Assembly (NCBI RefSeq): GCF_026914265.1
Contig: NC_069130.1
Location: forward strand, 45,077,929 to 45,141,928
Source: Mya arenaria
Taxonomy: Eukaryota; Mollusca; Bivalvia; Myida; Myidae
Direction of reading: 5' to 3'
Length of the DNA: 64,000 nt
A program made the translations under genes and the position numbers. The notes under the pieces are model-generated. The model was not told the origin of the DNA. It did no database searches and saw nothing but the letters and a program-made list of their open reading frames with translations. Below, one piece after another: positions 1,490 to 62,328 of this stretch (positions are counted from its first letter, which is position 1; every line of letters begins with the position of its first letter).

Positions 1490-1582
1490 TTTTTTTTTTT
1501 TTTTTGGACTCATCGAATTTTGGAAAGTTGTGTGTTTTTTAAAAAGGAATTATTTTTTGTTATTTTTTATAAAATTAAATAT

Positions 1583-5422: not shown

Positions 5423-5456
5423 TGTACTTTGTAGTATTTAATATCTAAATTAAATG

Positions 5457-6659: not shown

Positions 6660-7324
6660 GTTTAATAGTCTGTATTTACATATTAATCTTTATTTTGGTA
6701 TTTCTTAATGATAACATAAACTTTTTACCTTAGTGTTCGTTGAAAAGAAGTGAAAACCGTGTCCAAACCTCGTCAAAGCACTTTGTTTACATGTTTATAT
6801 CTTTTACCCGTACCGGAAGTTACCATCAGCTGTTAACTGTCAGAATGATGCACAGAAATTTTACACTTTTTACACAAAATATATTGAATTAGACACTTTA
6901 ATATTTCCCAATCATTTCCTTTTACACTTCTTGATTGTTTCAAATAACTTTTCATTCAACAAATCACTAAATTTAAGCTAATTTTAAATATTTTCAATTT
7001 TGAAATAAAAACAACAACTTTCCGTTTTCGTGACGTCACGTCATGTAAAACAATTGTAATTGTCATGTTGTAAAGCTGCAGTTGTATAACATCATGTCTG
7101 TTTTGTTTTATGTTACATCATTTTGTAGCAGTCAACAACTCTCTTTTTTTATATCCCCCAGCGAAGGTTACATAAAACTATTATCAATAGTCCTTCACAA
7201 CAAACAGTGACCTTGACCATAGGGACCCCAAATGTAATCTCATGAAAGTCTCCATAAACTCTTCCTAAATACCAATTTGGTCAAAATATGTCAACCCTTA
7301 TTAAGGTTATTCAGTACCAAGTGG

Positions 7325-32299: not shown

Positions 32300-34720
32300 G
32301 TGTATCCTTACTACTATTTAGGATGTCTATATCTCGTAGCTTGCCGGAGTAGGCCGAGTTGTTACGATTTGGCCGAAGTGTTCGGAATGTTTTCAATAAG
32401 TTTCGACAAGCCAGGCAGAAACGATGTAAAACCCTACGGCTCACACAGCCACCCAATGAGAGCGACCGACGGCCAATTTTTGAGTGTGTATGTGGTCTAT
32501 TTTGAATCTTGCCGGCGAAAGGCCGGGTTGTAAGGGTTGACGACCAAGTGTATTCGCGCATGCGCTTTGTTTAATATTCGTCAGGTATTCGGTAACTAGG
32601 ATAGCGGCCCTGAATGTGAGTTTTGATATTTTTAAACACAATTCAACAACTTTTCTGATCAGCATCATATTATATGTGTAATCAGAGACATAAAGAAACG
32701 AAAAACCATATTTAGAGAGTTTAAAATTTGAAAATCATGTTTCATTTCACGTATAATTTCATGATCCTGTTAGACCTGTTTATTGCGCTTCTAACTGCTT
32801 TCGTTTTACGTGTATGTATACTGCTCAAACCTTGAACGTCAGTTCTAAGTGTTCGGAATGTTTTCAATAAGTTTCGAGAAGCCAGGCAGAAACGATGTAA
32901 ACCCTACGGCTCACACAGCCACCCAATGAGAGGGACCGACGGCCAATTTTGAGTGTGTATGTGGTCTATTTTGAATCTTGCCGGAGAAGGCCGGGTTGTT
33001 AGGGTCGACGACCAAGTGTATTCGCGCATGCGCTTTGTTTAATATTCGTCACGTATTCGGTTACTAGGATAGCGGCCGTGAATGTGAGTTTTGATTTTTT
33101 TAAACACAATTCAACAACTTTTCAGATCAGCATCACATTATATGTGTAATCAGAGACATTAAGAAACGAAAAACCATATTTTGTGAGTTTAATATTTGAA
33201 AATCATGTTTCATTACACGTATAATTTCATGATCCTGTTAGACATTTTTAATACGCTGTTAACTGCTTTCGTTTTACGTGTATGTATACTGCTCAAACCT
33301 TGAAAGACAGATCTAAGTGTTCGGAATGTTTTCAATAAGTTTCGAGAAGTCAGGCAGAAACGATGTAAACCCTACGGCTCAAACAGCCACCCAATGAGAG
33401 GGACCGACGGCCAATTTTGAGTGTGTATGTGGTCTATTTTGAATCTTGCCGGAGAAGGCCGGGTTGTTAGGGTCGACGACCAAGTGTATTCGCGCATGCG
33501 CTTTGTTTAATATTCGTCACGTATTCGGTTACTAGGATAGCGGCCGTGAATGTGAGTTTTGATTTTTTTAAACACAATTCAACAACTTTTCAGATCAGCA
33601 TCACATTATATGTGTAATCAGAGACATTAAGAAACGAAAAACCATATTTTGTGAGTTTAATATTTGAAAATCATGTTTCATTACACGTATAATTTCATGA
33701 TCCTGTTAGACCTTTTTAATACGCTGTTAACTGCTTTCGTTTTACGTGTATGTATACTGCTCAAACCTTGAAAGACAGTTCTAAGTGTTCGGAATGTTTT
33801 CAATAAGTTTCGAGAAGTCAGGCAGAAACGATGTTAACCCTACGGTTCACACAGCCACCCAATGAGAGGGACCGACGGCCAATTTTGAGTGTGTATGTGG
33901 TCTATTTTGAATCTTGCCGGAGAAGGCCGGGTTGTTAGGGTCGACGACCAAGTGTATTCGCGCATGCGCTTTGTTTAATATTCGCCACGTATTCGGTTAC
34001 TAGGATAGCGGCCGTGAATGTGAGTTTTGATTTTTTTAAACACAATTCAACAACTTTTCAGATCAGCATCACATTATATGTGTAATCAGAGACATTAAGA
34101 AACGAAAAACCATATTTTGTGAGTTTAATATTTGAAAATCATGTTTCATTACACGTATAATTTCATGATCCTGTTAGACCTTTTTAATACGCTGTTAACT
34201 GCTTTCGTTTTACGTGTATGTATACTGCTCAAACCTTGAAAGACAGTTCTAAGTGTTCGGAATGTTTTCAATAAGTTTCGAGAAGTCAGGCAGAAACGAT
34301 GTTAACCCTACGGCTCACACAGCCACCCAATGAGAGGGACCGACGGCCAATTTTGAGTGTGTATGTGGTCTATTTTGAATCTTGCCGGAGAAGGCCGGGT
34401 TGTTAGGGTCGACGACCAAGTGTATTCGCGCATGCGCTTTGTTTAATATTCGTCACGTATTCGGTTACTAGGATAGCGGCCGTGAATGTGAGTTTTGATA
34501 TTTTTAAACACAATTCAACAACTTTTCAGATCAGCATCACATTATATGTGTAATCAGAGACATTAAGAAATGAAAAACCATATTTTGTGAGTTTAATATT
34601 TGAAAATCATGTTTCATTTTACATATTTTTTTATGATCCTGTTCGACCTTTTTAATACGCTGTTAAATGCTTTCGTTTTACGTGTATGTATGATACTGCT
34701 CAAACCTTGAAATCATTTTC
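32300..34720 (+). repeat. 468-bp tandem repeat, about five copies, promoter-like unit
   Basis: The word GTTCGGAATG recurs at 32380, 32851, 33319, 33787 and 34255: period 471 then exactly 468 three times. Later copies are about 98 percent alike by eye. Each unit has, in order on +, CCAAT in CACCCAATGAGAGG, GCCGG-rich text, the palindrome CGCGCATGCGC (an NRF1-type site), a GC-rich stretch, then GGCCGTGAAT followed by GTGAGT, a good 5' splice site, then AT-rich sequence. That order resembles a promoter with a short first exon. No protein is encoded. It lies upstream of the plus-strand NLR-like gene, but no link is shown. Confidence 0.9.
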
Positions 34721-37480: not shown

Positions 37481-40400
37481 ATGACGACTTATGGCCAATT
37501 ATTGAGGGATAAGAAAGCCCAGAACTGGGTTAAGGCTGCCTTCGCCCTCAAAATAACCAAGGATGGTCTACAGCCTCTGGTAGAGGATGTGCTGACATGC
37601 GTTCACCAGGACATCTATAACAACGTCAGAACATCTAAGGGTCTTCCAGGCGGGGCAACATGTGCACAATGTTTCACCGAGAACGTGTTGAAATGCTCTA
37701 CTCGTGGGATATGCACCAGTACTGGAAACTGTAAATTTCATAACTCCCCTCATAAGATGTATGCTCCGTGTCCAAACAGGATTTGTGAAGGCGTCCGTGA
37801 TGAAATAATTCAACATCACAGGTTTCCGGTACCATCATGGAAGAACACGAATGCCGACAAATGGTGTACGAGCCACTGGGAGATCGGCAAGTGTTTCCTG
37901 CCTCCTGATGGTTACAAGACCAAGTCCTCCATCAACGACAGTGACTTCAACGGAGTGATCAGCGTCATGATGAATTGTAAGGATTTCCAGAACAAGCTGT
38001 CGTTTAACGTTGCGACACAGACAAATTTGTTAACAGAGGTAAACATATGAATCATACTATAATCATATTATGCGATTTAGATGACTTATAAAAGCTGCAC
38101 TCTCACAGACTGTCAGACAGTTTGACTTTTATTTCATTTTGTATCCCAGAATCAGCTGATTTAGGCATTAATACATTTAATTCAATCATATAAGATTACT
38201 CACTAAAGAACTGCCGAAAAACTTTTTCTTAAAGCGTTTCTTATGCTTTTAGCCATTAAACTTCAATTTTCGAAAATTTGAAAAAAACGCGATCTGATCT
38301 TGTCAGCAGTCTTATATTACTGGTTTACAGACATTAACGCAAACATTGGCTTGTTCCCATACAAAACATAAAAAAGTTGTCTAAACAATCTGTGAGAGTT
38401 CAGCTTTAATGAATGTTCATATAAATTAATGCAGAATGTTTTAGTATTCACTTGAAGTTCCTCTGTGTACTTATTAAATACAATGACAACCATTGCAAGT
38501 ACTCTATCTTATTGATTATTTTGTACATGTATTCGTTACTTTTATCCAAACAACCAAGGAGTCTTACCGGGCACACATATATATATGTATACTATCATGC
38601 ATACTATCATATAATATGTAGTAACATATCTATATATATATCTATATCTAACTATCTATCTCTCTCTCTATATATATAATATATATATAGATACGTTACT
38701 ACATATTGTATGTTTTGTAGCTTTGTTTGTCAATACATTTGAAACATTACATTTAAGGTTCGGGACATTGGTCGAGGCGTACGCCACTTTAGTGACCAGA
38801 AAGTCAAGGACACGGAACTAGTGGACTTTCTGTTCAAGCTCCGCACCCTGCTGGAGGACAAGACTGAACTTGCAACCAGACCCGAGGCACAACACGCCGT
38901 GGAACAGCTAAAGAAGGTACGCACTTACATTCTTTATGACTAAACTGAACTAGCAAACCGACACAAGGCACAACACGCTGTGGAACAGCTTAAGAAGGTA
39001 CTAACTTACATGCTTTATGACTCAACTGAATTAGCAAACCGACCCGAGGCACAACGCGCTGTGGAACAGCTTAAGAAGGTACGCACTTACATGCTTTATG
39101 ACTAAACTGAACTTGCAAACCGACCCGAGGCACAACATGCCATGGAACAGCTTAAGAAGGTACGAACTTGTATGCTTTTTGACTCAACTGAACTAGCAAA
39201 CCGACCTGAGGCACAACACGCTGTGGAACATCTTAAGAAGGTACAAACTTATATGCTTTAAATGACTAAACTGAATTCACAAACCGACCCAAGGCACCAC
39301 ACGCCGTGGAACAGCTTAAGAAGGTACGCACTTACATGCTTTATGACTCAACTGAACTTGCAAACCGACCCGAGGCACAACACGCCGTGGAACAGCTTAA
39401 GAAGGTACGAACTTGTATGCTTTTTGACTCAACTGAACTAGCAAACCGACCTGAGGCACAACACGCTGTGGAACATCTTAAGAAGGTACGAACTTATATG
39501 CTTTAACTGACTAAACTGAATTCACAAACCGACCCGAGGCACCACACGCCGTGGAACAGCTTAAGAAGGTACGCACTTACATGCTTTATGACTCAACTGA
39601 ACTTGCAAACCGACCCGAGGCACAACACGCTGTGGAACAGCTTAAGAAGGTACGAACTTGTATGCTTTTTGACTCAACTGAACTGCCTGAGGCACCACAC
39701 TCCGTGGAACAGATTAAACAGGTGTGACATAACAAGATGGCCGTTACAATTAGCATACACGAACTGAGGCACCACACTCCGTGGAACAGATTATACAGGT
39801 GTGACTTTACATGATAGATGGCACAGCTGAACTAGCCTACTGACCCTAGGCACAACACGCAATGGAACAGATTAAACAGGTGTGACATTACATGAAAGAT
39901 GACACAACTGAACTGGCATATACCGACCTGAGGCATTACAAGCCGTTGAACACATTAAATAGGTATTTCTTAACTTGATAGCTGACACAACTGAACTAGC
40001 GTACCGACAACAGGCACAGCACGCCTTGGAACATATTAGACAGGTAAGACTTTACATGATAGCAGACACAACTGGACTAGCATACCGACAACAGGCACAG
40101 CACGCCGTGGAACATATTAGACAGGTATGACTTTACATGATAGTGGACACAACTGGACTAGCATACCGACAACAGGCACAGCACGCCGTGCAACATATTA
40201 GACAGGTATGACTTTACATGATAGTGGACACAACTGTACTAGCATACCGACAACAGGCACAGCACGCCGTGGAACATATTAGACAGGTGTGACTTTACAT
40301 GATAGCGGACACAACTGAGTTAGCTTACCGACAACATGCACAGCACGCCCTGGAACATATTAGACATGTATGACTTTACATGATAGTGGACACAATTGAA

Positions 40401-43400
40401 CTAGCATACCGACAACAGGCACAGCAGGCCATGGAACATATTAGACAGGTAGGACTTTACATGATAGTGGACACAACTGAGCTAGCGTACCGACAACTGG
40501 CACAGCACGCGGTGGAACATATAAGACAGGTATGACTTTACATGATAGTGGACACAACTGAGCTAGCATACCGACAACTGGCACAGCATGCGGTGGAGCA
40601 TATAAGACAGGTATGACTTTACATGATAGTGGACACAACTGAGCTAGCGTACCGACAACTGGCACAGCATGCGGTGGAGCATATAAGACAGGTATGACTT
40701 TACATGATAGTGGACACAACTGAGCTAGCGTACCGACAACTGGCACAGCACGCCGTGGAACATATAAGACAGGTATGACTTTACATGATAGTGGACACAA
40801 CTGAGCGAGCGTACCGACAACCTGCACAGCACGCCGTGGAACATATTAGACAGGTGTGACTTTACATGATAGCGGACACAACTGAACTAGCGTACAGACA
40901 ACATGCACAGCACGCCCTGGAACATATAACAGGTATAACTTTATATGATAGTGGACACAACTGAACTAGCATACCGACAACAGGCACAGCACGCCGTGGA
41001 ACATATAACAGGTATAGCTTTACATGATAGCGGACACAACTGAACTAGCGTACAGACAACATGCACAGCACGCCCTGGAACATATAACAGGTATAACTTT
41101 ACATGATAGTGGACACAACTGAGCTAGCGTACCGACAACTGGCACAGCACGCCGTGGAACATATAAGACAGGTATGACTTTACATGATAGTGGACACAAC
41201 TGAGCGAGCGTACCAACAACCTGCACAGCACGCCGTGGAACATATAAGACAGGTGTGACTTTACATGATAGCGGACACAACTGAACTAGCGTACAGACAA
41301 CATGCACAGCACGCCCTGGAACATATAACAGGTATGACTTTACATGATAGTGGACACAACTGAGCTAGCATACCGACAACAGGCACAGCATGCCTCGGAA
41401 CATATTAGACAGGTATGACTTTACATGATAGCGGACACAACTGAACTAGCGTACAGACAACAGGCACAGCACGCCCTGGAACATATAACAGGTATGACTT
41501 TATATGATAGTGGACACAACTGAACTAGCATACCGACAACAGGCACAGCACGCCTCGGAACATATTAGACAGGTATTACTTTACATGATAGTGGACACAA
41601 CTGAACTAGCATACCGACAACAGGCACAGCATTCCGTGGAACATATTAGACAGGTATGACTTTACATGATAGTGGACACAACTGAACTAGCTTACCGACA
41701 GCAGGCACAGCATTCCGTGGAACATATTAGACAGGTATGACTTTACATGATAGCGGACACAACTGAACTAGCGTACCGACAACAGGCACAGCACGCCGTT
41801 GAACATATTAGACAGGTATGACTTTACATGATAGTGGACACAACTGAGTTAGCTTACCTAAACAATGCACAACCTGGTACAGCGTAACCTTGGTTAAACA
41901 GCTTGTCATATAAGATCACCGGATTTTGGTGTAGGTGGGGGTCCCTATATGGGTATATGCAGGGATTTTGGGGTGCATATTTCTGCGTGGTGACCTTATT
42001 CGATGTAAGGCAAACCAAGGTTGCGTACCATTGGGACTCCACCCATGACACAAACTGAACCTGTCTGAGCTCTCCCGCGTCTATTGCATACGAAGTGGTG
42101 GCCTCGAGTTTATTAAAGTGACTCGCTCATGTTTTGAACCAAACATTAGTTATCCCGGTAATGCATCTAAAACACTTATTTTATCATTAGTTTACTCTAT
42201 GATATCGAAATTGCAGAAAAAAAATACAGTTATAGCATAACAAAGTATTTTGGTTTTAGTGGGGTTCGAACCCACGCCGGTAAAGTCAAGAAAAAAAGAT
42301 GGAAACAGCCAACTAAGCCTCACAGCCACCGGGATTTAAAAACAGTGGTGGATATGTAGCCCTGTTTTGAATACATTGATAACATCACGTGAGAATGTCA
42401 ATCAATGAATCACGCAACACCACAGCCGTAATTAATTTTCAATTGCGTTACAAAAATGTGGTCTTCAAAGACGCTATTTGAGCAACATCATCTGCTAAAA
42501 GTGACATTCTCATTCAACATCAATACATACACATGTATAGCAAACATCTATTTTGAGTGATAAACTACTTACTTAATAGTGCATTTATGGAAACTATTTA
42601 TAACTGATAATAGGATTATAACCGTGGATTTAATAGCAAAAATATTAAATTATTGGTAATTGCTAAAAGATTTACGGTGATCTACTATAGTCGCATAAGG
42701 TAGAAATACCGTGTTTCTACACCTTTCTTTCAAATTAAACTCTGTTATATTCACAAAAACAACTGTTTTCAACATTTATCCATCCTTTTTATTATATTTG
42801 AACAATAATATTAATTGTGGTAAATCTTACATCGGAGTAAGAGTGCATCAATAAGGGTTCCAGCTTTTGGCATTTTTGTTTTAACACTCCTTATGATTTG
42901 CCACACTTTATTTCATAATTAAAAAAAAAATGCATGTTACAAACCATGAACGAGTTACCTTAAGTCGTGGCCACAACATGTGAGTTGTTGGAAGTCAGTA
43001 AGTATGTCGTGAGCACGAGATTAAAACAGATATTAAAAATACGCCTGTCACCTCAATGACAGCGTACATAAAAAGTGCTCACGACATACTTACTGACTTC
43101 CAACAACTCACATGTTGTGGCCACGACTTAAGGTAACTCATTCATGGTTTGTAACATGCATTTTTTTTTAATTATGAAATACACTAATGTAGTTATATTG
43201 TTTTTCGTTACAATATTGTCTTTATTAGTTTATATTTTTTGTAAAATAGCCTTTGAGTTATGGTATGCTTAATGTCTTGATCTGTTTTGTTGACAGCTGC
43301 AAACAGACGATTTCAAGATAAGCGCAGAGAACGAAGCAGAGATGTTGAAGGAAGGTAAGAGACGATTTTCATCAATGGCGTATCGAGCACTGAAACTTCA

Positions 43401-46400
43401 TGCTTCAATCAATGAACGTCAATAAGGGACTTCTTCAAACAGGCTTTCAGAGAAAACTGGGTTATCAGAATGAGGATGTCTTTGGTTGGCGGGCGTCAAA
43501 CTTTGGTTTGTGCCCAATAAATTAAGCTACCATTGGTGGCTAGTAATAAATCTTGGTATGAAGGTAGTTGATGTAAAGGGCTAGCTTGGGATAGCGTTAG
43601 AGGGGATTGACGTCAAAGTCAATGTCAATGGTGAAGGGGGTTCAAGATACTGAAAATGGCTACAGTTGAGTAGTGATTTTCAAACTCTGATTGGAAACGT
43701 TCGGCCCAGATATCTACTGATAGTGTGAAAAACTGTAACGATGAATGCATCATGTAAAAGTGTTTATAATCATATTAAACTTTCTGGTTCGTAAAAAAAT
43801 GTTTAAGTGGTGTTCAGTGCTTTCTGTTTGCAAAAAAAGTTTTAACATTGTCATAATTATGCAAAAAGTGTATATTCACATGAGACTTGGTATGATTTGT
43901 TAAGCAAAAATAAAGTCATAAGATACTTAACAAGAGTAGTTTTTAGTTGTGTCTCTTTTTCATTAAAGTAAAGAGAAATGATGCTGCATTTTTCAAACTC
44001 ATATAACCTAACAACTTACAATACTGCCGCCTATCGTTTATGCCAAGAGTCTTGTAATAATACTGCTGCCTATCGTCTATGCCAAGAGTCTTTTAATAAT
44101 ACTGCTGCCTATCGTCTATGCCAAGAGTCTTTTAATTATACTGCCACCTATCGTTTATGCCAAGAGTCTTGTAATAATACTGCTGCCTATCGTCTATGCC
44201 AAGAGTCTTTTAATAATACTGCTGCCTATCGTCTATGCCAAGAGTCTTTTAATAATACTGCTGCCTATCGTCTATGCCAAGAGTCTTGTAATAATACTGC
44301 TGCCTATCGTCTATGCCAAGAGTCTTTTAATAATACTGCTGCCTATCGTCTATGCCAAGAGTCTTGTAATAATACTGCTTCCTATGTGCTGTGCCAAGAG
44401 TCTTGTGATAATACTGCTGCCTATCGTCTATGCCAAAAGTCTTGTGATAATACTGCTGCCTGTCTTCTATGCCAAGAGTCTTGTAATAATACTGCTTCCT
44501 ATGTGCTGTGCCAAGAGTCTTGTGATAATACTGATGCCTGTCTGTTGTGCCAAGAGTCTTGTGATAATACTGCTGCCTATCTTCTATGCCAAGAGTCTTT
44601 TGATAATACTGCTGCCTGTCTGTTGTGCCATGAGTCTTGTGATAATACTGCTGCCTATCTTCTATGCCAAGAGTCTTGTGATAATATTGCTGTCATCTTA
44701 TATGCAAGAGTCTTGTGATAATACTGATGCCTATCGTCTATGCCAAGAGTCTTGTGATAATACTGCTGCCTATCTTCTATGCCAAGAGTCTTGTGATAAT
44801 ACTGATGCCTGTCTGTTGTGCCAAGAGTCTTGTGATAATACTGATGCCTATCTGCTGTGCCAAGAGTCTTGTGATAATACTGCTGCCTATCTTCTATGCC
44901 AAGAGTCTTGTGATAATACTGCTGCCTATCTTCTATGCCAAAAGTCTTGTGATAATACTGCTGCCTATCGTCTATGCCAAGAGTCTTGTGATAATACTGC
45001 TGCCGCCTATCGTCTATGCCAAGAGTCTTGTGATAATACTGCTGCCGCCTATCGTCTATGCCAAGAGTCTTGTGATAATACTTATCTTCTGCAACAAGAG
45101 TCTTGTGATATTCCTGCTCGTTACCTTCTATACTAAGCGTCTTTTGACATTGCTGCTACTTATCTTCCGCAACAAGCGTCTTGTGATATTGCTGCTCATT
45201 GTCGTCTGAAACAAGCCTCTTGTGACAATGCTGCTACTTATCTTCCGCAACAAGCGTCTTGTGACAATGCTGCTACTTATCTTCCGCAAAAAGCCTCTTG
45301 TGATAATGCTGCTACTTATCTTCTGTACTAAGCGTCTTGTGACAATGCTGCTACTTATCTTCCGCAAAAAGCCTCTTGTGATAATGCTGCTACTTATATT
45401 CTGTACTAAGCATCTTGTGATAATGCATACGTATCTGTTCTTATTTTTTATGTCTTCAATGATATATTTTTTACATTTACTTCAGGATTACGACTACGTT
45501 TGGCAAACCATTACCAAACCACTTTGGCCGACATGCCGGTATCTCCCATTTTTGAGGAAAAGAACGCAAAACTCAGGAAATTCTACGTGGCACCGAAAAT
45601 TGTGGAGAAAGATCATAGAAAAATCGGCAAAATTGACAAGGAAGAAAGTGGTCAAGAAGTTGCAAAGTTTTCAGATGTTTTCTCAAAAAACGGTCAGTTG
45701 CTCAGAAATGCTTTCCTTGTTGGCGAACCGGGCGAAGGCAAATCCACATTTTCCGTAATGTGTGCCCTGGATTGGACTCACCAGTATTTACCAGCGGAGG
45801 AAAACGTTGGTATTAAAACAAGCTATGCCGACCCAGAATTCTTCAAAGAGTTTGCATTTTTGTTTCATGTCACCCTACGAGATTCAGGTAAAACGTGTGA
45901 TCTAGCAGAAATGATCAAGGATCAACTTATACGTAAATTCTACCACGAGAAGGATGCCGATGATGGCTACCGGCTCTTACAGACGGTGCTGGAAAGTGAA
46001 ACATGTTTAATCATAGCTGACGGCCTCGACGAATGGACCCATCCGAAAAACGTAAACTGTACCTGCAAAACTGCGGAAAAAGTCATCCCTTTCCGAAATT
46101 CGGCCAACAAGGCCACACTCCTCACGACAACGCGTCCCTGGCGAATGTCACAGTTTAGAGTGCAGGATTCAAAGATCGACAAATATCTTGAAATAGAAGG
46201 AGCTGCAGACACAGAGCAACTCGTGGAAAATATCATCAACATTCTTAATGAGGGAAATAAGGATGAACGGACACCAAAGGCTTTCATGAAAATGGTGTCA
46301 GCGAAGAATCTTGAAGGATTATTGTCAGCACCTATCAGTATCACCCAGCTCGTGTGCCTGTGGTTCGAGGGAAAATCGTTTACCGATTCAAAATGTGACA

Positions 46401-47761
46401 TTTATGCTGGCGTGATAAACATGCTATCATGTAGATGTAGTAATATGCAACGGAAGCATAAGATTCCGAAAATTGAACTGCCACCCGTACTAAAGAAACA
46501 TAAATGCTTCATGCAAAATCCCATGGTTTACCTTACGCTGGCAAAGTTAGCATACAAAACGTTGTTTTCAGAGTGCAGAGATTCGTCTGTTGTCTTCAGC
46601 AACACAACAGTCGACGATTTGTTAAGCAGGAAGCAGGTTGAATTTGCATTGACGTCAGGCTTACTCACGGAGAAGAAATCCAACTCATTGATCAAGAGAT
46701 CATCTCACTTTTCATTCTTTCATAAAACACTTCAAGAGTTTTTAACGGCTCTTCATTTATGTTTAAATGAAAACGACTACAGTCAGCTATCAAGCAAGTA
46801 CGAACAAGATAATAAGGAAAATATCTTGGGAGATGTTTCTCAGACATTTATTTTCATATGTGGAATGAAGCCCGAGCTCGGTGTACAAATGTCTTCATGG
46901 ATCAATAGTTCTATACCACCATACCGACTATCAATCTACAGTAGAGAGGCTAGACTACTTCAGCCCCCGATTCTCTCCGGACTCCGTGAAGCACAGGCGA
47001 ACAACTATGGTGACATACCGCTCTATCTCGCACGCTTCTGGATTTATAGTGACGAGGATGTCGTAGTGTTAAAAAAGCTGATGATGATAAACAAGGAACG
47101 TATTCAGTCACTACACATCAGTGGATGCTATGATCAAATTAATGGGGAAGAGCTGCAGGAGGTGATCACATCCTCCTCCGACTCCCTCAAAGCAGTGATA
47201 CTGTGGTACCGTGATGGGCAGTATGACCTGTCCCAGTGTCACAGGCTGGAATATCTGTATATACACGGAGACAATACAACACGTGTGCAGGTTGATCCAA
47301 CACATATTACAACATGTGACTTATATCATGTATCATCGAATGTTGAAATGTACATATTTAGATTATTTAAACACGATCAAAGGAGGAGTAAACTACAACA
47401 TGTTGTGTTACAGAGCGTTAAGAATGTCCAGTTACTTGTGGATACACTACCAAGTCTCCCTCAGTTACAACGCCTTGGCATATGGGATACAGATCTAGGT
47501 GAGCTCCACCTCCTCCCTCCAGCCTCCATCACCGATATTAAACTATGGGGTGTGACAATGACAGCGGAGGCGGTGCGGAGTCTGATAGAGACGATGAAGA
47601 ACATACCACACACCATTACATGCGAAATGGAGGACTGCACGGTGGAACCTGCCAGTGAGATGAAAGACATCCGAGAACATATGAACAGTTCGCCGTCATT
47701 TAAGGATCTCAAATTTGAATATGAGGGTGGAAAGCTTCATTTCACATTCACCAAAATATGA
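37481..47761 (+). CDS. NLR-like protein: CXorf38/DUF4559-like region, NACHT NTPase, LRR-like C-terminus
   Basis: Coding exons 37481-38038, 38758-38916, 43297-43354 and 45486-47761 join in phase (GT-AG) into 1016 residues plus stop. An acceptor (CTTTTACCAG) precedes the first exon. In-frame TGA and TAA just upstream fix the ATG at 37481. Residues ~1-240 resemble human CXorf38 (DUF4559): QNWVKAAFAL at 14-23, WEIGKCFLPP at 133-142, VRHFSDQKV in exon 2, plus a Cys-rich insert at 61-102. The NACHT domain begins at ~330: Walker A GEPGEGKST at 338-346 and Walker B LIIADGLDEW at 433-442. Residues ~810-1016 look like irregular leucine-rich repeats. By analogy with animal NLRs it may sense infection or stress in the cytosol and oligomerise on ATP binding; the ligand is unknown. 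No CARD, Death or TIR domain is seen. Introns 2 and 3 hold large minisatellites. Confidence 0.85.
38089..38409. mobile_element. ~320-bp foldback MITE in intron 1 of the NLR-like gene
   Basis: Terminal inverted repeats of about 20 bp (AAAGCTGCACTCTCACAGA on the left, TCTGTGAGAGTTCAGCTTT on the right). The interior is also partly self-complementary, with AATCATATAAGATTACTCAC against GTCAGCAGTCTTATATTACT. No ORF. Confidence 0.8.
38573..38697. repeat. TA-rich microsatellite with flanking inverted words
   Basis: Runs of TATATC and TCTATA form a simple repeat. ATATGTAGTAAC on the left and GTTACTACATAT on the right are exact inverse copies, so the block can fold into a long hairpin. It ends about 60 bases before NLR-like exon 2. 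Confidence 0.8.
38864..41860 (+). repeat. 81-bp tandem array derived from the 3' end of NLR-like exon 2 and its splice donor
   Basis: About 37 units fill the first 3 kb of intron 2. The first block (to ~39720) repeats ACTGAACT(T/A)GCAAACCGAC, then CCGAGGCACAACACGC, then GTGGAACAGCTTAAGAAG followed by GTACGC, the exon 2 end and donor. The second block (from ~39950) has a diverged unit reading CATACCGACAACAGGCAC, then AGCACGCCGTGGAACATATT, then AGACAG followed by GTATGA. Each unit still encodes TELA-x-R-x2-AQHAVE, and nearly all keep a GT donor. 81 is a multiple of three. Stops such as TGACTAAAC interrupt read-through in the first units. Confidence 0.95.
42243..42340 (-). mobile_element. tRNA-like SINE head or tRNA pseudogene
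   Basis: On the minus strand there is an A-box-like stretch (GGTGGCTGTGAGGCTTAGTTGG) split by one extra base pattern, a long variable region with a T run, and B box GGTTCGAACCCC near 42251-42262. The T run inside (seven T) would stop polymerase III early, which argues against a working tRNA. Confidence 0.5.
42909..43181. mobile_element. Foldback element: ~107-bp arms, 58-base loop, intron 2
   Basis: The left arm 42909-43016 and right arm 43075-43181 are inverted copies with one substitution (AACGAG versus AATGAG) and one base of poly-A length difference. The near identity means recent origin or conversion. It ends 115 bases before exon 3 of the NLR-like gene. No ORF; no certain target duplication. 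Confidence 0.9.
44012..45425 (+). repeat. 39-bp minisatellite in intron 3 of the NLR-like gene
   Basis: About 36 copies. The first ~28 read (in one frame) N-N/D-T-A-A-Y-R-L-C-Q-E-S-C/F, 13 residues per unit. The last ~8 (from ~45130) are a diverged subfamily with CTACTTATCTTCCGCAACAA. Because 39 is a multiple of three, two frames stay open for about 250 codons each. Neither frame joins the flanking exons through recognisable splice sites, so I treat it as intronic repeat, not coding sequence. It ends about 60 bases before exon 4. Confidence 0.9.
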
Positions 47762-49564: not shown

Positions 49565-51110
49565 GATTGCGTCATCGGTGAGGTATCGTCATCGGTGAGG
49601 CGTCGCCCATAGCGTCATCGTCGAGGTGTCGTCATCAGTGAGGCGTCGCCCATTGCGTCATCGTCGAGATGTCGTCATCGGTGAGGCGTCGCCCATAGCG
49701 TGATCGTCGAGCTGTCGTCATCCGTGAGGCGTCACCAAAACGTCATCGTCGAGGAATCGTCATCGGTGAGGTATCGCCCATAGCGTCATCGTCGAGGTGC
49801 CGTCATCAGTGAGGCGTCGCCCATAGCGTCATCGTCGAGGTATCGTCATCAGTAATGCGTCGCCCAAAGCGTCATCGTCGAGGTGTCGTCATCAGTGAGG
49901 CGTCGCCCATTGCGTCATCGTCGAGGTGTCGTCACCAGTGAGGCGTCGCCCATTGCGTCATCGGTGAGGTGTCGCCCATTGCGTCATCGGTGAGGTGTCG
50001 CCCATTGCGTCATCGGTGAGGTGTCGCCCATTGCGTCATCGGTGAGATGTCGCCTTTTGCGTCATCGGTGATGTGCAGCCCATTGCGTCATCGGTGAGGT
50101 ATCAACCATTGCGTCATCGGTGAGATGCAGCCCATAGCGTCATCGGTAAGGTGTCGTTCATTGCGTTCATCGGTGAGGTATCATCCACTGCGTTCAGCGG
50201 CGAGGTGTCTCCAAAAGTGTCATCGGTGAGGTATCGACATCAATGGGGTGTCTTCCAAAGTGTCATCGGTGATGTTTCGTCTTCGGTGAGGTATCTCCCA
50301 TAGCCTTATCGTCGAGGTGTCGTCATCGGTGAGACGACGCCCATTGCGTCATCGATGAGGTGTCGCCAATAGCTTCATTGATGAAGTGTCGCCAATAGCG
50401 TCATCGGTGAGGTATCGCCCATAGCGTCATCGGTGAGGTATCACACATAGCCACATCGGTGAGTGATCGTCATCAGTGAGGTGTCGCCCATTGCGACATT
50501 GGCGAGGTGTCGTCATCAGTAAGGCGTCGCCCATTGCGTCATCGTCGAGGTGTCGTCATCATTGAGGCGTCGCCCATTGCGTCATCGGTGAGGTGTCGTC
50601 ATCGGTGAGGCGTCGCCCATCGCGTCATCGGTGAGGTGTCGCCAGTTGCGTCATCGGTGAGGTGTCGCAATTTGTGTCATCGGTGAGTTATCGCCATTTC
50701 CGTCATTGGTGAGGTGTTGTCATTTGCGTCAGAGGTGAGGTGCCGCACATAGCGTCACCGATGATGTATCACCCACTGCGTTATCGGTGAGGTGCCGCCC
50801 AAAACCTCATCGGTTAGGTATAAGCCATGCCGTCATCGGCGAGTTGTCGTCGGTTGTGTCATCGATGAGGTGTCGCCATTTGCGTCATCGTTCAGTTGTC
50901 GCCATGTGCGTCATCAGTGAGGTGTCACCATTTGTGTCATCGGTGAGGTGCCGCACATAGCGTCATCAGTGAGGTATCACCCATTGCGTCATCGGTGAGG
51001 TGTTGCCCATTGCGTCATCGGTGAGGTGTCGCCAATATCGTCATCGGTGAGGTATCACCCATTGCGTCATCGGTGAGGTGCCGCCCATCGTGCCATAAGA
51101 GAGATATCAC
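49565..51110. repeat. 26-bp CpG-rich minisatellite
   Basis: About 59 units around ATTGCGTCATCGGTGAGG then TGTCGCCC. The 5' third alternates two unit types (CATCGTCGAGG with CATCAGTGAGG), and the middle is a near-pure monomer run at about 49950-50040. It is far richer in CpG and GC than the surroundings, and copies diverge toward both ends. No ORF. Confidence 0.95.
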
Positions 51111-51114
51111 TCCT

Positions 51115-54100
51115 TGCTGGCAAACTCATTCTCTATAGAGTTATTGAATCTGCTTCTTAATCACCAACCAGTGATATACACTGTACTTGTTCTATAATTA
51201 TAGAGTCTGCATCTTAATCATCAACCAGTGATATACAATGTACATGTTCTAGAGTTATTGAATCTGCTTCTTAATCATCAACCAGTGATATACACTGTAC
51301 ATGTTCTATAATTATAGAGTCTGCATCTTAATCATCAACCAGTGATATACAATGTACATGTTCTAGAGTTATTGAATCTGCTTCTTAATCACCAACCAGT
51401 GATATACAATGTACATGTTCTATAATTATATAGTCTGCATCTTAATCATCAACCAGTGATATACAATGTAAATGTTCTATAATTATAGAGTCTGCTTCTT
51501 AATCACCAACCAGTGATATACACTGTACATGTAACAGAGTTATAGAGTCTGCTTCTTAATCACCAACCAGTGATATACAATGTTCATGTTCTATAATTAT
51601 AGAGTCTGCATCTTAATCATCAACCAGTGATATACAATGTACATGTTCTAGAGTTATTGAATCTGCTTCTTAATCATCAACCAGTGATATACAATGTACA
51701 TGTTCTAGAGTTATTGAATCTGCTTCTTAATCATCAACCAGTGATATACAATGTACATGTTTTAGAGTTATTGAATCTGCTTCTTAATCACCAACCAGTG
51801 ATATACACTGTACATTTTCTATAATTATAGAGTCTGCATCTTAATCATCAACCAGTGATATACAATGTACATGTTTTAGAGTTATTGAATCTGCTTCTTA
51901 ATCATCAACCAGTGATATACACTGTACATGTTCTATAATTATAGAGTCTGCATCTTAATCATCAACCAGTGATATACAATGTACATGTTCTAGAGTTATC
52001 GAATCTGCTTCTTAATCATCAACCAGTGATATACACTGTACATGTTCTATAATTATAGAGTCTGCATATTAATCATCAACCAGTGATATACAATGTACAT
52101 GTTCTAGAGTTATTGAATCTGCTTCTTAATCACCAACCAGTGATATACAATGTACATGTTCTATAATTATAGAGTCTGCATCTTAATCATCAACCAGTGA
52201 TATACAATGTACATGTTCTATAATTATAGAGTCTGCTTCTTAATCACCAACCAGTGATATACACTGTACATGTAACAGAGTTATAGAGTCTGTTTCTTAA
52301 TCACCAACCAGTGATATACAATGTACATGTTCTATAATTATAGAGTCTGCATCTTAATCATCAACCAGTGATATACAATGTACATGTTCTAGAGTTATTG
52401 AATCTGCTTCTTAATCACCAACCAGTGATATACAATGTACATGTTCTAGAGTTATTGAATCTGCTTCCTAATCACCAACCAGTGATATACAATGTACATG
52501 TTCTAGAGTTATTGAATCTGCTTCTTAATCATCAACCAGAGATATACAATGTACATGTTTTAGAGTTATTGAATCTGCTTCTTAATCACCAACCAGTGAT
52601 ATACACTGTACATGTTCTATAATTATAGAGTCTGCATCTTAATCATCAACCAGTGATATACAATGTACATGTTTTAGAGTTATTGAATCTGCTTCTTAAT
52701 CATCAACCAGTGATATACAATGTACATGTTCTATAATTATAGAGTCTGCATCTTAATCATCAACCAGTGATATACAATGTACATGTTTTAGAGTTATTGA
52801 ATCTGCTTCTTAATCATCAACCAGTGATATACACTGTACATGTTCTATAATTATAGAGTCTGCTTCTTAATCATCAACCAGTGATATACAATGTACATGT
52901 TTCAGAGTTATTGAATCTGCTTCTTAATCATCAACCAGTGATATACAATGTACATGTTCTATAATTATAGAGTCTGCATCTTAATCATCAACCAGTGATA
53001 TACAATGTACATGTTCTCGAGTTTTTGAATCTGCTTCTTAATCACCAACCAGTGATATACAATGTACATGTTCTATAATTATAGAGTCTGCATCTTAATC
53101 ATCAACCAGTGATATACAATGTACATGTTCTATAATTATAGAGTCTGCTTCTTAATCACCAACCAGTGATATACACTGTACATGTAACAGAGTTATAGAG
53201 TCTGCTTCTTAATCACCAACCAGTGATATACAATGTACATGTTCTATAATTATAGAGTCTGCATCTTAATCATCAACCAGTGATATACAATGTACATGTT
53301 CTAGAGTTTTTGAATCTGCTTCTTAATCACCAACCAGTGATATACAATGTACATGTTCTAGAGTTATTGAATCTGCTTCTTAATCACCAACCAGTGATAT
53401 ACAATGTACATGTTCTAGAGTTATTGAATCTGCTTCTTAATCATCAACCAGTGATATACAATGTACATGTTTTAGAGTTATTGAATCTGCTTCATAATCA
53501 CCAACCAGTGATATACACTGTACATGTTCTATAATTATAGAGTCTGCATCTTAATCATCAACCAGTGATATACAATGTACATGTTTTAGAGTTATTGAAT
53601 CTGCTTCTTAATCATCAACCAGTGATATACACTGTACATGTTCTATAATTATAGAGTCTGCATCTTAATCATCAACCAGTGATATACAATGTACATGTCC
53701 TAGAGTTATTGAATCTGCATCTTAATCATCAACCAGTGATATACACTGTACATGTTCTATAATTATAGAGTCTGCATCTTAATCATCAACCAGTGATATA
53801 CAATGTACATGTTCTCGAGTTTTTGAATCTGCTTCTTAATCACCAACCAGTGATATACAATGTACATGTTCTATAATTATAGAGTCTGCATCTTAATCAT
53901 CAACCAGTGATATACAATGTACATGTTCTATAATTATAGAGTCTGCTTCTTAATCACCAACCAGTGATATACACTGTACATGTAACAGAGTTATAGAGTC
54001 TGCTTCTTAATCACCAACCAGTGATATACAATGTACATGTTCTATAATTATAGAGTCTGCATCTTAATCATCAACCAGTGATATACAATGTACATGTTCT

Positions 54101-56735
54101 AGAGTTTTTGAATCTGCTTCTTAATCACCAACCAGTGATATACAATGTACATGTTCTAGAGTTATTGAATCTGCTTCTTAATCACCAACCAGTGATATAC
54201 AATGTACATGTTCTATAATTATAGAGTCTGCATCTTAATCATCAACCAGTGATATACAATGTACATGTTTTAGAGTTATTGAATCTGCTTCTTAATCATC
54301 AACCAGTGATATACACTGTACATGTTCTATAATTATAGAGTCTGCATCTTAATCATCAACCAGTGATATACAATGTACATGTTCTAGAGTTATCGAATCT
54401 GCTTCTTAATCATCAACCAGTGATATACAATGTACATGTTCTATAATTATAGAGTCTGCATCTTAATCATCAACCAGTGATATACAATGTACATGTTCTA
54501 TAATTATAGAGTCTGCTTCTAAATCACCAACCAGTGATATACACTGTACATGTAACAGAGTTATAGAGTCTGCTTCTTAATCACCAACCAGTGATATACA
54601 ATGTACATGTTCTATAATTATAGAGTCTGCATCTTAATCATCAACCAGTGATATACAATGTACATGTTCTAGAGTTATTGAATCTGCTTCTTAATCACCA
54701 ACCAGTGATATACGATGTACATGTTCTAGAGTTATTGAATCTGCTTCTTAATCACCAACCAGTGATATACAATGTACATGTTCTAGAGTTATTGAATCTG
54801 CATCTTAATCATCAACCAGTGATATACAATGTACATGTTTTAGAGTTATTGAATCTGCTTCTTAATCATCAACCAGTGATATACACTGTACTTGTTCTAT
54901 AATTATAGAGTCTGCTTCTTAATCATCAACCAGTGATATACAATGTACATGTTTTAGAGTTATTGAATCTGCTTCTTTATCATCAACCAGTGATATACAC
55001 TGTACATGTTCTAGAATTATAGAGTCTGCATCTTAATCATCAACCAGTGATATACAATGTACATGTTCTAGAGTTATTGAATCTGCTTCTTAATCACCAA
55101 CCAGTGATATACGATGTACATGTTCTAGAGTTATTGAATCTGCTTCTTAATCACCAACCAGTGATATACAATGTACATGTTCTAGAGTTATTGAATCTGC
55201 ATCTTAATCATCAACCAGTGATATACAATGTACATGTTTTAGAGTTATTGAATCTGCTTCTTAATCATCAACCAGTGATATACACTGTACTTGTTCTATA
55301 ATTATAGAGTCTGCTTCTTAATCATCAACCAGTGATATACAATGTACATGTTTTAGAGTTATTGAATCTGCTTCTTTATCATCAACCAGTGATATACACT
55401 GTACATGTTCTAGAATTATAGAGTCTGCATCTTAATCATCAACCAGTGATATACAATGTACATGTTCTAGAGTTATTGAATCTGCTTCTTAATCACCAAC
55501 CAGTGATATACAATGTACATGTTCTATAATTATAGAGTCTGCATCTTAATCATCAACCAGTGATATACAATGTACATGTTCTATAATTATAGAGTCTGCC
55601 TTTTAATCACCAACCAGTGATATACAATGTACATGTAACAGAGTTATAGAGTCTGCTTCTTAATCACCAACCAGTGATATACAATGTACATGTTCTATAA
55701 TTATAGAGTCTGCATCTTAATCATCAACCAGTGATATACAATGTACATGTTCTAGAGTTATTGAATCTGCTTCTTAATCACCAACCAGTGATATACAATG
55801 TACATGTTCTAGAGTTATTGAATCTGCTTCTTAATCATCAACCAGTGATATACAATGTACATGTTTTAGGGTTATTGAATCTGCTTCTTAATCACCAACC
55901 AGTGATATACACTGTACATGTTCTATAATTATAGAGTCTGCATCTTAATCATCAACCAGTGATATACAATGTACATGTTTTAGAGTTATTGAATATGCTT
56001 CTTAATCATCAACCAGTGATATACACTGTACATGTTCTATAATTATAGAGTCTGCTCCTTAATCATCAACCAGTGATATACAATGTACATGTTTTAGAGT
56101 TATTGAATCTGCTTCTTAATCATCAACCAGTGATATACACTGTACATGTTCTATAATTATAGAGTCTGCATCTTAATCATCAACCAGTGATATACAATGT
56201 ACATGTAACAGAATTATACAGTCTGCATCTTAATCATCAACCAGTGATATACACTGTACATGTTCTAGAATTATAGATTCTGCTCCTTAATGATCAACCA
56301 GTGATATACACTGTACATGTTATTGAATTATAGACCCTGCTTTTTAATCACCAACCAGTGATATACACTGTACATGTTCTAGAGTTATAGAATCTGTTTC
56401 TTAATCACCAACCAGTGATATACACTGTACATGTTCTAGAGTTATAGAATCTGTTTCTTAATCACCAACCAGTGATACACACTGTACATGTTCTAGAATT
56501 ATAGAGTCTGCATCTTAATCATCAACCAGTGATATACAATGTACATGTTCTAGAAACATAGATTCTGCTTTTTTATGATCAACCAGTGATATACAATGTA
56601 CATGTTCTAGAAACATAGATTCTGCTTTTTTATGATCAACCAGTGATATACAATGCTCTAGAATTATAGATTTCGTTCCTTAATCATCAATTAGTGATAT
56701 ACAATGTACATGTTCCCGAAATATAGATCCTTCTT
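51115..56735. repeat. 57-bp satellite array with higher-order structure (~98 copies)
   Basis: Unit: CAACCAGTGATATACAATGT, then ACATGTTCTAGAGTTATTG, then AATCTGCTTCTTAATCAT. Two main types, A (ATAATTATAGAGTCTGCATC) and B (AGAGTTATTGAATCTGCTTC), often alternate as 114-bp dimers. Larger blocks repeat too: the run from ~54648 recurs from ~55047 (399 bp, seven units), sharing the rare TACGATGTAC variant, and a 912-bp shift relates ~52368 and ~53280. The open frames (19 residues per unit) are stopped wherever type A occurs, so it is not coding. Confidence 0.97.
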
Positions 56736-57821: not shown

Positions 57822-59986
57822 ACATCCTTATGATGGATGACAATTCTTAATGCACTAACACATCTTTGCATCCTGATGATGGATGGCGTACCTTAATGCA
57901 CTAACACATCTTTGCATCCTTATGATGGATGGCGTACATTAATGCACTAACACATCTTTGTATCCTTATGATGGATGGCTTACCTTAATGCACTAACACA
58001 TAGTTGCATCCTTATGATGGATGGCGTACATTAATGCACTAACACATCTTTGCATCAGTATGATGGATGGCTTACCTTAATGCACTAACACATCTTTGCC
58101 TCCTTATGATGGATGGCTTACCTTAATGCATTAACACATCTTTGCATCCTGATGATGGATGGCGTACCTTAATGCACTCACACATCTTTGCCTCCTTATG
58201 ATGGATGGTTAACCTTAATGCACTAACACATCTTTGCATCCTGATGATGGATGGCGTACCTTAATGCACTAACACATCTTTGCATCCTTATGATGGATGG
58301 CGTACATTAATGCACTAACACATCTTTGCATCAGTATGATGGATGGCTTACCTTAATGCACTAACACATCTTTGCCTCCTTATGATGGATGGCGTACCTT
58401 AATGCACTTACACATTTTCCATCCTTATGATGGATGGCTTACCTTAATGCACTAACACATCTTTGCATCAGTATGATGGATGGCTTACCTTAATGCACTA
58501 ACACATCTTTGCATCCTTATGATGGATGGCAAACCTTAATGCACTAACACATCTTTGCATCCTTATGATGGATGACGTACCTTAATGCACTAACACATCT
58601 TTGCATCCTTATGATGGATGGCGTACCTAAATGCACTAACACACCTTTGCATCCTTATAATAGATTGCGTACCTTAATGCACTAACACATCTTTGCATCC
58701 TTATGATGGATGGCGTACCTTAATGCACTTACACATTTTGCATCCTTATGATGGATGGCGTACCTTAGTGCACTTACACATCTTTGCATCAGTATGATGG
58801 ATGGCTTACCTTAATGCACTAACACATCTTTGCCTCCTTATGATGGATGGCGTACCTTAATGCACTTACGCATTTTCCATCCTTATGATGGATGGCTTAC
58901 CTTAATGCACTAACACATCTTTGCATCCTTATGATGGATGGTTTACCTTAATGCACTAACACATCTATGCATCCTGATGGTGGATGGCCTACCTTAATGC
59001 ACTAACACATCTTTGCATCATTATGATGGATGACGTACCTTAATGCACTTACACATCTTTGCAATCTTATGATGGATGGCGTACCTAAATGCACTAACAC
59101 ATCTTTGCCTCCTTATGATGGATGGCGTACCTTAATGCACTTACACATTTTCCATCCTTATGATGGATGGCAAACCTTAATGCACTAACACATCTTTGCA
59201 TCCTTATGATGGATGACGTACCTTAATGCACTTACGCATTTTCCATCCTTATGATGGATGGCTTACCTTAATGCACTAACACATCTTTGCATCCTTATGA
59301 TGGATGGTTTACCTTAATGCACTAACACATCTATGCATCCTGATGGTGGATGGCCTACCTTAATGCACTTACACATTTTCCATCCTTATGATGGATGGCA
59401 AACCTTAATGCACTAACACATCTTTGCATCCTTATGATGGATGACGTACCTTAATGCACTTACACATCTTTGCATCCTTATGATGGATGGCGTACCTAAA
59501 TGCACTAACACACCTTTGCATCCTTATAATAGATTGCGTACCTTAATGCACTAACACATCTTTGCATCCTTATGATGGATGGCGTACCTTAGTGCACTAA
59601 CACATCTTTGCATCCTTAGGGTGGATGGCATACCTTAATGCACTTACACATCTTTGCATCCTTATAATGGATGGCGTACCTTAATGCACTAACACATCTT
59701 TACCTCCTTATAATGGGTGGCGTACCTTATGCATTAACAAATCTATGCATCCTTATAATGGACGGCGTACCTTAATGCACTAACACATCTTTACCTCCTT
59801 ATAATGGATGGCGTACCTTAATGCATTAACACATCTTTGCATCCTTATAATGGATGGCGTACCTTAATGCAATAACACATCTTCGCATCTTTATGATGGA
59901 TGGCTAACCTTAATGCATTAACACATATTTGCCTCCTTATGGTGGATGGCGTACCTTAATGCACTCATTCATCTTTGCATCCTTAT
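57822..59986. repeat. 46-bp minisatellite (~47 copies)
   Basis: Unit CATCCTTATGATGGATGGCG, then TACCTTAATGCACTAACACA, then TCTTTG. Variants (CAGTATGATGG, TTACACATTTTCC, TTATAATGG) recur in blocks, e.g. around 58380-58440 and 58840-58900, which shows multi-unit duplications. The array grows more diverged toward its right end. Confidence 0.95.
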
Positions 59987-62328
59987 GGAACTTAATCTTT
60001 GTTTGGGCTGACCATTTTAAGTCAAATCTTGATACCACTGGTATGTTTTTTGGCCTAAATGTTCAGCTTAATATATTAAGTCGATACTTGATTTAACGGG
60101 ACATTCTTACGTTTGGCTTCAATAGAAATTTAAAATTTCTGCGATTTATGACGTCAGTAAACAACGTTTCAAGCACTTTTTGTAAAATGTACAAAAGTGC
60201 GTTTTCTACGTCAATTTTTCCACAAATTGATAATTTTAGATATGCAAGAAAAAATATCAATTATGTTTTTCAGGTCCGGTTAAAAAAAACATCCCTCGGT
60301 CATGCTGCGTGGCCGGTAATTCGGCTTACGCGCGTGCACTGGGGTTGGATTTTTTCTAGCCGTACCGGACATACATGATATATACTTATAGTTCTATGGT
60401 AAAAATAAAGCACCTAGTCTTTTGTTTTCGAAATAGTTTTCAGTAAGGTTAGATAGTTCGCGAAGAGTTTTGTTTCCGCAGGAAGTATGCATAACCAGCA
60501 ACTTTTATATTCATTCCAAAAGCGTTTACTTTTTATATTCCTTCAAGAAAAAAAACATTAGCGATAGCGCCACCACTAGGGCAACAGCGCCAGCACTTTT
60601 ATAAATATGTGCATTTTTCCTTTTAAGGAAGTGCTTATCAGGTTTGTTGTGTTCCGGCATAGGTACTAGACATAACAGTTATGTTTACATGCGTGAGAAT
60701 GTTCCTACGGGGTGTGTAAGCAAGAAATGTATTTGTATGCAATCAAATCTTAAAATATGCACAAGTCCGATTCGGGAGAAAAGCTCCTGACACCACAGTT
60801 TGCACACTATTGAAACAAAATAGTAACCAGCCCACAGTACAAGTATTCTTACACGGTACCACATCTTCCGATTTTCGAAATATGTCCGTTAAATGAAATT
60901 ATAAAATAAAATATAAACCATACTCACGTTTGTTCATGTAAACATAGGGCACAGCTCCACCACGGAATTGTCGACAACTCTTTTTCTTTGCACCACCGTA
61001 AAGTGGTGGAGATGGCGTTTAGAGGTCGTGTAGTCTGTGTTTATAGGCCAGTCAATTTAATATTTGGAGTCAAACAAATTTCTTAAAAATTGTTGTGTAT
61101 TTTGCGATGCGTTATATTTTTTGTCTTAAATCTGTGAAATGTCCGCACCCGAGCTCACGCGGCATTTAGAAATGCAGACATTTAAAATTCGAAAAAAAAG
61201 TTTACCGATGACCTGCATTGAGCACAATACTTACCATTTGCGAATTCCATACACGGTGCGCATGTTAAAAGTCATATCAATCAATATGCGCGTTTTTTTT
61301 AAATTTTAAAACGTTGCTTAATAGTTCACTCCACGAAATCGATCTTTGCAATAAGAAGGACGACAAACAAAGTCAGTTCACAATAAGGTCTGGGCATACA
61401 CATGTCCTCTCATGAAATAATACATAATTATACACATGTATTCAACCGATGCGCAACCTATAAAACATTCTGCTTTTAAACAAAAACAAATGGTTCATGT
61501 ATTGTATTCAATAAGACAGCAGTATTTCCAATTGCACAGTTATTTATTGTTCATAATTATTGATACTCACGTATATATACCAGATATGAACAATACAAAA
61601 TAATGATATTTCACTGTTTCAAATACAGGATATATCAGTTGGACAGTTTTCACTGTTTTTAAAATTTCAGCCCACTATGACTATCAAATCAAACGTCAAC
61701 GCGCACAGGGTTGGGACACAATTCCAACGAAGATATTACACAATATGACGTCATTTTCGCATACGATTCGGCGCGCCTTTCTGAGAAACTTCAGTCTTTT
61801 CATCCTTATAGGCAAATATTAAAAACGAAAGAAAATGTTTGTTTCTGTTCATATGGCAAAATATTTCATTTCCTTAACACCAAAAGTAAATATTGATTTT
61901 GTTAGCCGATCAGTCAGTCTTTCTAATGAGACTATATGTAATGCTTATTTAAGAACTTTAATTTGTGGGTATCTAAATCCTTTCAGTTACAATTTACTAC
62001 CGAAACAAATATCTATTTCAGACCATTAGTCAAGCGGATCTAACTATTTGCCGAATGAAAACACCTACACCATATGGAGAGGTCATAGGGTAACAGTTGG
62101 ATACGAACTAGTTTTTTTAAAGTTTAAATATACACCACATTTTGAAATGTCCATGAACTAACCAGTTCCATATGTACAAGAGTGGTAGTTTTTATTTAGC
62201 ATTACGGATCACGCCTTGTGCTCTCATGGAAATCCTGGCTTATTGCATTTCAAAACATTTTCTTATTACTATATGATATATTCCAAGGTTTTCACCGTTA
62301 TAATCAGAATGTACATAGTCATAATTCA
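59987..62328. other. No supported gene
   Basis: Mixed sequence, with CpG-containing patches around 60290-60370 and 60940-61030. A minus-strand stretch at about 60935-61010 could be read as SPPLYGGAKKKSCRQFRG and ends near a GTGAGT donor, but it lacks an acceptor and an in-frame stop lies just before it. Confidence 0.4.

Follow-up and report, generated by a model that had tools for sequence, protein, structure and literature searches.

The forward strand of contig NC_069130.1 of Mya arenaria holds, within a stretch of 64,000 nucleotides (nt) (positions 45,077,929 to 45,141,928 of the contig, here called the window and numbered from its first letter), a gene of a type linked to innate immunity, which combines a DUF4559 domain with a NACHT domain. 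Intron 2 of this gene begins with a tandem array of units of 81 base pairs (bp), each of which spans the end of exon 2, the 5' splice site (donor) and the start of the intron. The exon limits were read from open frames and splice signals, backed by conservation among paralogs, and the gene and its array comprise the following features:

37481 to 38038, forward strand: first coding exon, an open frame of 186 amino acids with the DUF4559 domain (Pfam PF15112, E 6.1e-17, residues 8-171)
38758 to 38916, forward strand: exon 2, 53 codons, phase 0-0, from frame and splice signals and from paralog conservation
38863 to 41873, forward strand: 81-bp array of 37 full units (38863-41842) followed by one partial unit, from wraparound alignment and Tandem Repeats Finder
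38863 to 39676, forward strand: exon-like (A) block, units 1-10, of which units 2-10 differ by 0.10-0.14 from the native unit
38917 to 38943, forward strand: native donor GT (38917-38918) and the rest of the intron part of unit 1 (27 nt in all), closing with an in-frame TAA (38941-38943)
39677 to 41842, forward strand: diverged (B) block, units 11-37, at 0.31-0.40 from the native unit, with donors that are mostly CAG/GTATGA or GTGTGA
43297 to 43354, forward strand: exon 3, 19 codons and 1 nt, with the acceptor TTGTTGACAG; present in all 20 paralog loci fetched as stretches of 10 kilobases (kb)
45486 to 47761, forward strand: exon 4, an open frame with the NACHT domain (Pfam NACHT, E 1.3e-6) and the stop TGA at 47759-47761

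The first coding exon closes in phase 0 at the donor GT at 38039, and an acceptor-like site near 37452 suggests an upstream exon of the 5' untranslated region. Exons 2 and 3 are joined in phase 0, and exon 3 passes one base to exon 4, where the open frame continues. The NACHT match of exon 4 scores 28.8 bits against a curated Pfam cutoff of 26.7, which it thus passes; the exon is present in 14 of the 20 fetched 10-kb loci and in the other six would lie outside the fetched sequence or is missing. Exon 2 is under coding constraint, because its divergence at third codon positions is far above that at positions 1 and 2, both in its first 105 nt (0.16 versus 0.03) and in its tail (0.069, 0.028 and 0.156 at positions 1-3 among 27 array genes).

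The array in intron 2 and its paralogs

Units were called by wraparound alignment against two consensus units, with the native exon end counted as unit 1. The nominal unit consists of 54 exon nt and 27 intron nt across the exon 2/intron 2 boundary, and the exon part of unit 1 is the last 54 nt of exon 2 (38863-38916). At 38863-41805, Tandem Repeats Finder reports 36.5 copies with a period of 81 bp, and more rows of 81 and 162 bp that reach 41858; with scores of 1357-3116, the array is therefore not due to chance. A GT donor is found in 37 of the 37 window units, most often within the 9-mers CAGGTATGA (13 units), CAGGTGTGA (6), AAGGTACGC (4) and AAGGTACGA (4), while the remaining 10 units share nine kinds that occur once or twice each. 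Successive units are spaced by 81 (26 times), 79 (5), 83 (3), 80 (1) and 69 nt (1), and 10 of the 37 donors stand in the frame of exon 2. A preliminary description of the same DNA had reported about 37 tandem copies of an exon end with its donor and intron start, in two sequence families that pointed to two expansions, and had read them as a ladder of possible donors that might be a minisatellite seeded at an exon boundary; the 37 boundary-spanning units with GT and the two blocks agree with all of this. Its statement that nearly every unit keeps AAG/GTACGC or ACAG/GTATGA was too strong, since thirteen kinds of 9-mer occur, although the GT itself is universal, and the period that it took to be a multiple of three is contradicted by the spacings of 79, 80 and 83. 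Further along intron 2, at about 42941-43150, there is an inverted repeat with arms of 76 bases that are 98.7 per cent identical.

A genome search with exon 2 gave at least 132 matches, with 150 of 490 candidates scored; one match is the window and one falls within an array. The window and 54 other exon 2 loci (numbered with the prefix L) were examined, in sets of 20, 20 and 14 that were chosen and not random: the first by rank, the second for distant members and the third to add array genes. An array at the same boundary is present in 42 of these 55 loci, namely the window, 20 of 20 in the first set, 7 of 20 in the second and 14 of 14 in the third, and is missing in 13, more distant members (L036-L048), among which L037 has one unit-like stretch that is its own exon end. 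Copy number across the 42 array paralogs of this one assembly ranges from 2 to 56 full units; the counts of L051 and L056 may be low, as their arrays reach the fetched end, those of L019 and L033 include a detached stretch, and L034 and L059 have 2 full units each, that is, one beyond the native unit. Across these 42 loci, 237 of 641 spacings depart from a multiple of three.

In trees of exon 2 rooted on L040-L043, the array loci (42 in the protein tree and 41 in the DNA tree, where L058 was omitted for a codon gap) form one group with no array-free locus within it, with a support of 0.72 (protein) and 0.75 (DNA). Since the array loci group together without array-free members, at moderate support, a single origin of the array is probable, in a common ancestor of this group of DUF4559-NACHT genes. 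Typing of units as exon-like or diverged, which covered the window and loci up to L035, found the order of the window, exon-like first and diverged later, also in L009-L016, L021 and L025; only the native unit is exon-like in L017-L019, L022-L024, L027, L029-L031 and L033, and the order is mixed or otherwise in L020, L026, L028, L032, L034 and L035. From this block order we infer that the group of the window carries an old array together with a younger re-seeding from the exon end.

The array was also considered as a shuffling point between the 5' and NACHT halves of these genes. Upstream and exon 4 distances correlate poorly (0.21 in 15 loci), but no exchange at the array is evident, because L009 and the window, L013 and L014, L016 and L025, and L018 and L024 are mutual nearest neighbors in both distance tables. 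The nearly identical pairs L010/L011 and L018/L024 differ by about 0.005 in the upstream 1.1 kb (intron and exon 2) and by about 0.036 in exon 4, the reverse of the usual order, and this excess in exon 4 suggests paralog conversion or diversifying selection in the NACHT exon. In L010 (5916-8196) and L020 (5822-8078, both in oriented coordinates) the exon 4 match is split in two, and a reading of the whole span in a single frame meets many stops; both are possible pseudogenes.

Coding status and donor signals

The first 28 array loci contribute 392 distinct non-native units, in which 621 private changes were counted. Those in the exon part comprise 297 nonsynonymous, 93 synonymous and 26 stop changes (71.4, 22.4 and 6.2 per cent), against a neutral expectation of 67.7, 24.5 and 7.8 per cent under the same spectrum. 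Moreover, parsimony steps per column across the 42 loci are 26.3, 20.9 and 23.0 at codon positions 1-3, versus 22.9 for the intron part. The exon pieces of the array show no sign of coding constraint, because both the private changes and the codon-position steps fit neutrality; changes that are random with respect to codon position were among the findings that the preliminary description had named as refuting its reading, and here they count against the coding version of it. In the window, the TAA at 38941-38943 lies eight codons past the native donor and ahead of donor 2, and a stop precedes every downstream array donor in 35 of the 42 genes, the window included, when partial units are counted (36 of 42 with full units only). 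Thus, the longer in-frame isoforms that had been proposed are excluded by early stops for the window and 34 other genes, and the neutral private changes also argue against them. The use of array units as cassette exons is unlikely too, because little pyrimidine precedes the AGs within the consensus units (35-53 per cent, against 76, 71 and 53 per cent at the acceptors of exons 3, 4 and 2), by a crude score in which the acceptor of exon 2 is itself modest.

Donors are recognized through pairing with the 5' end of U1, and their consensus is CAGGTAAGT. Scoring was limited to U1 pairing and match count, both simple measures. Array donors match the consensus at a mean of 6.2 of 9 positions, native donors at 5.6 and 172 background GTs at 3.8, and the mean energy of the U1 duplex is -6.7 kcal/mol for array donors versus -5.6 kcal/mol for native ones. 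Sites with at least 7 of 9 matches have a density of 5.0 per kb in the array, as against 0.7 per kb on the rest of this strand. In the window, 34 of 36 units equal or beat the 6 of 9 matches of the native donor, so that the splice-site scoring put forward in the preliminary description, carried out in this simple form, finds the units no weaker than the native site.

Taken over all array loci, the donor letters AG/GT are also the best kept part of the unit. Among the 641 non-native units of the 42 loci, 610 have GT and 563 have AGGT, which is the best-kept 4-mer (0.878 versus 0.775 for the next), as GT is the best-kept dinucleotide (0.952 versus 0.911 for the best outside AG/GT), with gaps counted as losses in both. 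AG/GT also has the fewest base-corrected parsimony changes of 78 windows of four bases, at 0.50 in all loci, 0.46 in the first 28 and 0.43 in the later 14; by two-column rank, GT is first in all loci, first in the first 28 and fourth in the later 14. No such slowing is seen at donor positions +3 to +8, where the values lie between 0.89 and 1.73 across the three locus sets. Private changes are mildly scarce in GT (9 of 766, Fisher P 0.046), with 24 of 1499 in AG/GT (P 0.10). A Poisson P of 1.4e-7 for GT was set aside in favor of ranks, because the arrays share ancestry and the counts per column show over-dispersion (variance/mean 2.5).

Arrays with at least 10 non-native units (n = 22) were ranked one by one, with up to 19 ties on steps where changes are few. 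AG/GT ranks 1-5 of 78 in 15 of them (the window, L009-L016, L021, L025, L026, L029, L053 and L062), whereas the effect is weak or absent in the other seven (rank 28-44 in L018, L020, L024 and L035, 13 in L017, 10-11 in L051 and 15-31 in L056); these ranks are not independent, since the arrays share ancestry. Two arrays that lack an intact exon 2 served as controls, L063 and L064. L063 (C14:55802300-55806299) has no exon 2 match beside its 37 units, and all 8 unit matches displayed contain a stop, so that it may be a detached or decayed array copy; it retains GT in 37 of 37 units, and AG/GT ranks 33 by identity and 44 by steps (18 ties), a pattern that drift in a young array would predict. In L064, exon 2 is broken by frame changes, GT is kept in 15 of 15 units and AG/GT ranks 1 (10 ties on steps). 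Donor retention thus needs no working exon 2, because both defective arrays keep GT, and L064 argues weakly against selection through exon 2 splicing. Altogether, donor retention is suggestive of a constraint that would not be general, and the donor signal of the array may be under weak selection.

Origin and possible role of the array

The array is best explained as a boundary-spanning ("mirage") minisatellite whose first donor gives the productive mRNA, a reading that we hold to be likely. An 81-bp piece that runs from the last part of exon 2 across the 5' splice site into intron 2 would have been duplicated in tandem in the ancestor of one DUF4559-NACHT group and carried along in later gene duplications, with copy number shifted by tandem-repeat turnover. 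In the group of the window, re-seeding from the exon end would then have placed a young A block beside an old B block. Unit 1 would be the real exon end, with a donor that yields the productive mRNA, and the remaining units would be intronic, their exon pieces untranslated. These other units appear to be competent-looking pseudo-donors, because AG/GT is kept and nearly all of them equal or exceed the native site in U1 pairing; if one were used in the window, the frame would end eight codons past the native junction and the NACHT domain would be missing.

Several observations weigh against this reading. AG/GT changes at about half the rate of the other positions in the unit, a difference not expected under pure neutrality. 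Array donors seem stronger than native ones, so that sequence by itself gives no obvious reason for productive splicing at the first donor. Moreover, a downstream donor could be reached before any stop in seven of the 42 genes (L010, L011, L012, L020, L021, L050 and L059), out of frame in L020 and in frame in the other six. No sampled gene of the array group has lost its array, which could mean usefulness, with the caveat that L034 and L059 keep a single extra full unit and that group membership was read from the same loci.

The slow AG/GT and the superior average U1 pairing of array donors are what a donor decoy would lead one to expect. Repeated donors would recruit the U1 small nuclear ribonucleoprotein (snRNP) and compete with a weak native donor or occupy the acceptor of exon 3, and productive splicing would be lowered or delayed, through intron retention or a DUF4559-only product, so that an immune gene is kept in check; in a variant, they would shield the long intron from early polyadenylation. 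AGGT is intact in most non-native units, and splice-site decoys that promote intron retention are described (PMC8706089). Nevertheless, the effect is uneven among arrays whose ranks are not independent, positions +3 to +8 show no slowing, private changes in GT and AG/GT are at best mildly scarce, L063 and L064 retain GT without an intact exon 2 (both with few changes), very weak selection is expected on a single donor among dozens, and amphioxus mirages are reported to leave splicing undisturbed (PMC3087553). We therefore regard a decoy role as unlikely. The wider proposal built on it is somewhat more doubtful again: that an immune-receptor-like clan inherits arrays of pseudo 5' splice sites kept only for their donor letters as U1 decoys, that splicing to the NACHT exon would be inefficient or inducible with a DUF4559-only or retained-intron default, and that array length would set the level for each gene or allele.

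Two other roles for the array find far less room. It might serve as a sequence bank from which the end of exon 2 is converted, given that unit 1 is continuous with the array and the exon-like block seems re-seeded from unit 1. However, the exon 2 tail is nearer to the exon 2 of another gene than to its own array units in all 27 array genes compared (L032 and L049-L062, 15 genes, lay outside this comparison), and third-position divergence is alike in tail and head (0.156 versus 0.162). Gene conversion from array to exon 2 is thus unsupported by distances, and a sequence bank appears very improbable. Slightly less probable still is a reservoir of alternative coding exon ends that produces longer isoforms: the unit is nominally 27 codons long and one to five downstream donors can be reached in frame in the six genes named above, but stops come too early in 35 of the 42 genes, the window among them, more than a third of the spacings break the frame and the private changes fit neutrality.

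The turnover required by a mirage minisatellite would be normal here, because the window and its paralogs hold many other minisatellites. Apart from the 81-bp array, the window contains the following features:

44020 to 45424, forward strand: minisatellite of 39 bp in 36 copies, in intron 3 just before exon 4, separate from the 81-bp array (Tandem Repeats Finder)
32376-34712, 49569-51117, 51136-56715 and 57823-59987: further large arrays, of 468 bp in 5 copies, 26/43 bp, 57 bp in 98 copies and 46 bp in 47 copies, respectively (Tandem Repeats Finder)
1583-6689, reverse strand: two long open frames, of 1284 amino acids and, upstream, 410 amino acids, resembling a non-LTR (long terminal repeat) retrotransposon by eye

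Of the 14 fetched paralogs with exon 4, 12 have a 39-bp array no more than about 450 bases ahead of that exon, and the 43- and 46-bp arrays downstream of the gene also occur in L012 and L025. The frame of 1284 amino acids is presumably endonuclease/reverse-transcriptase/RNase H-like and that of 410 amino acids of the CCHC type, as we judge from their motifs.

Comparison with known systems

The domain pair of the window gene is the same as that of other bivalve DUF4559-NACHT (NLRP-like) genes, and DUF4559 is found in 45 of the 99 NLRP members of Corbicula fluminea (PMC8298618). The accessible part of that description makes no mention of intron arrays; our literature search found no report of such an array in mollusc NACHT genes. 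At least 42 paralogs, with apparently one birth and 2 to 56 full units of differing age, form a natural series. This series could be used to ask how splicing settles on a single 5' splice site when dozens of copies are as good or better, and also bears on whether exon-boundary minisatellites are inert or regulatory.

As far as the available parts of the sources go, related arrangements are known in other animals. In the human immune gene IFI6 (6-16, G1P3), two downstream repeat units serve as donors (PMC4526556, which cites Turri et al. 1995, with 'multiple splice donor sites' in its title), and a repeat at the exon end likewise supplies several donors. However, the repeat donors of IFI6 are reported to be used, whereas 35 of the 42 clam genes meet a stop before every downstream donor. 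Decoy exons and decoy splice sites in intron retention (PMC8706089) also place extra splice sites that could compete near a boundary, but the clam units have no clear acceptor partner. A close likeness is to the "mirage" minisatellites of amphioxus (PMC3087553, in its available part), present in Adh3 and in the globins BflGb6 and BflGb9, where the unit also spans an exon-intron boundary and many units keep AG/GT, as AGGT is kept in most clam units. Their turnover spares the array edge, and regular splicing is reported as undisturbed. Amphioxus mirages have units of 10-160 bp at 5' or 3' boundaries of several separate genes, with 6 and 3 copies in the two BflGb6 haplotypes, whereas in the clam a single 81-bp unit reaches up to 56 copies at a single boundary, in at least 42 paralogs and always at the 5' splice site. 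The clam array belongs to the same kind of structure, in another animal and in genes of another family; it exceeds the amphioxus globin case in size and is clan-wide.

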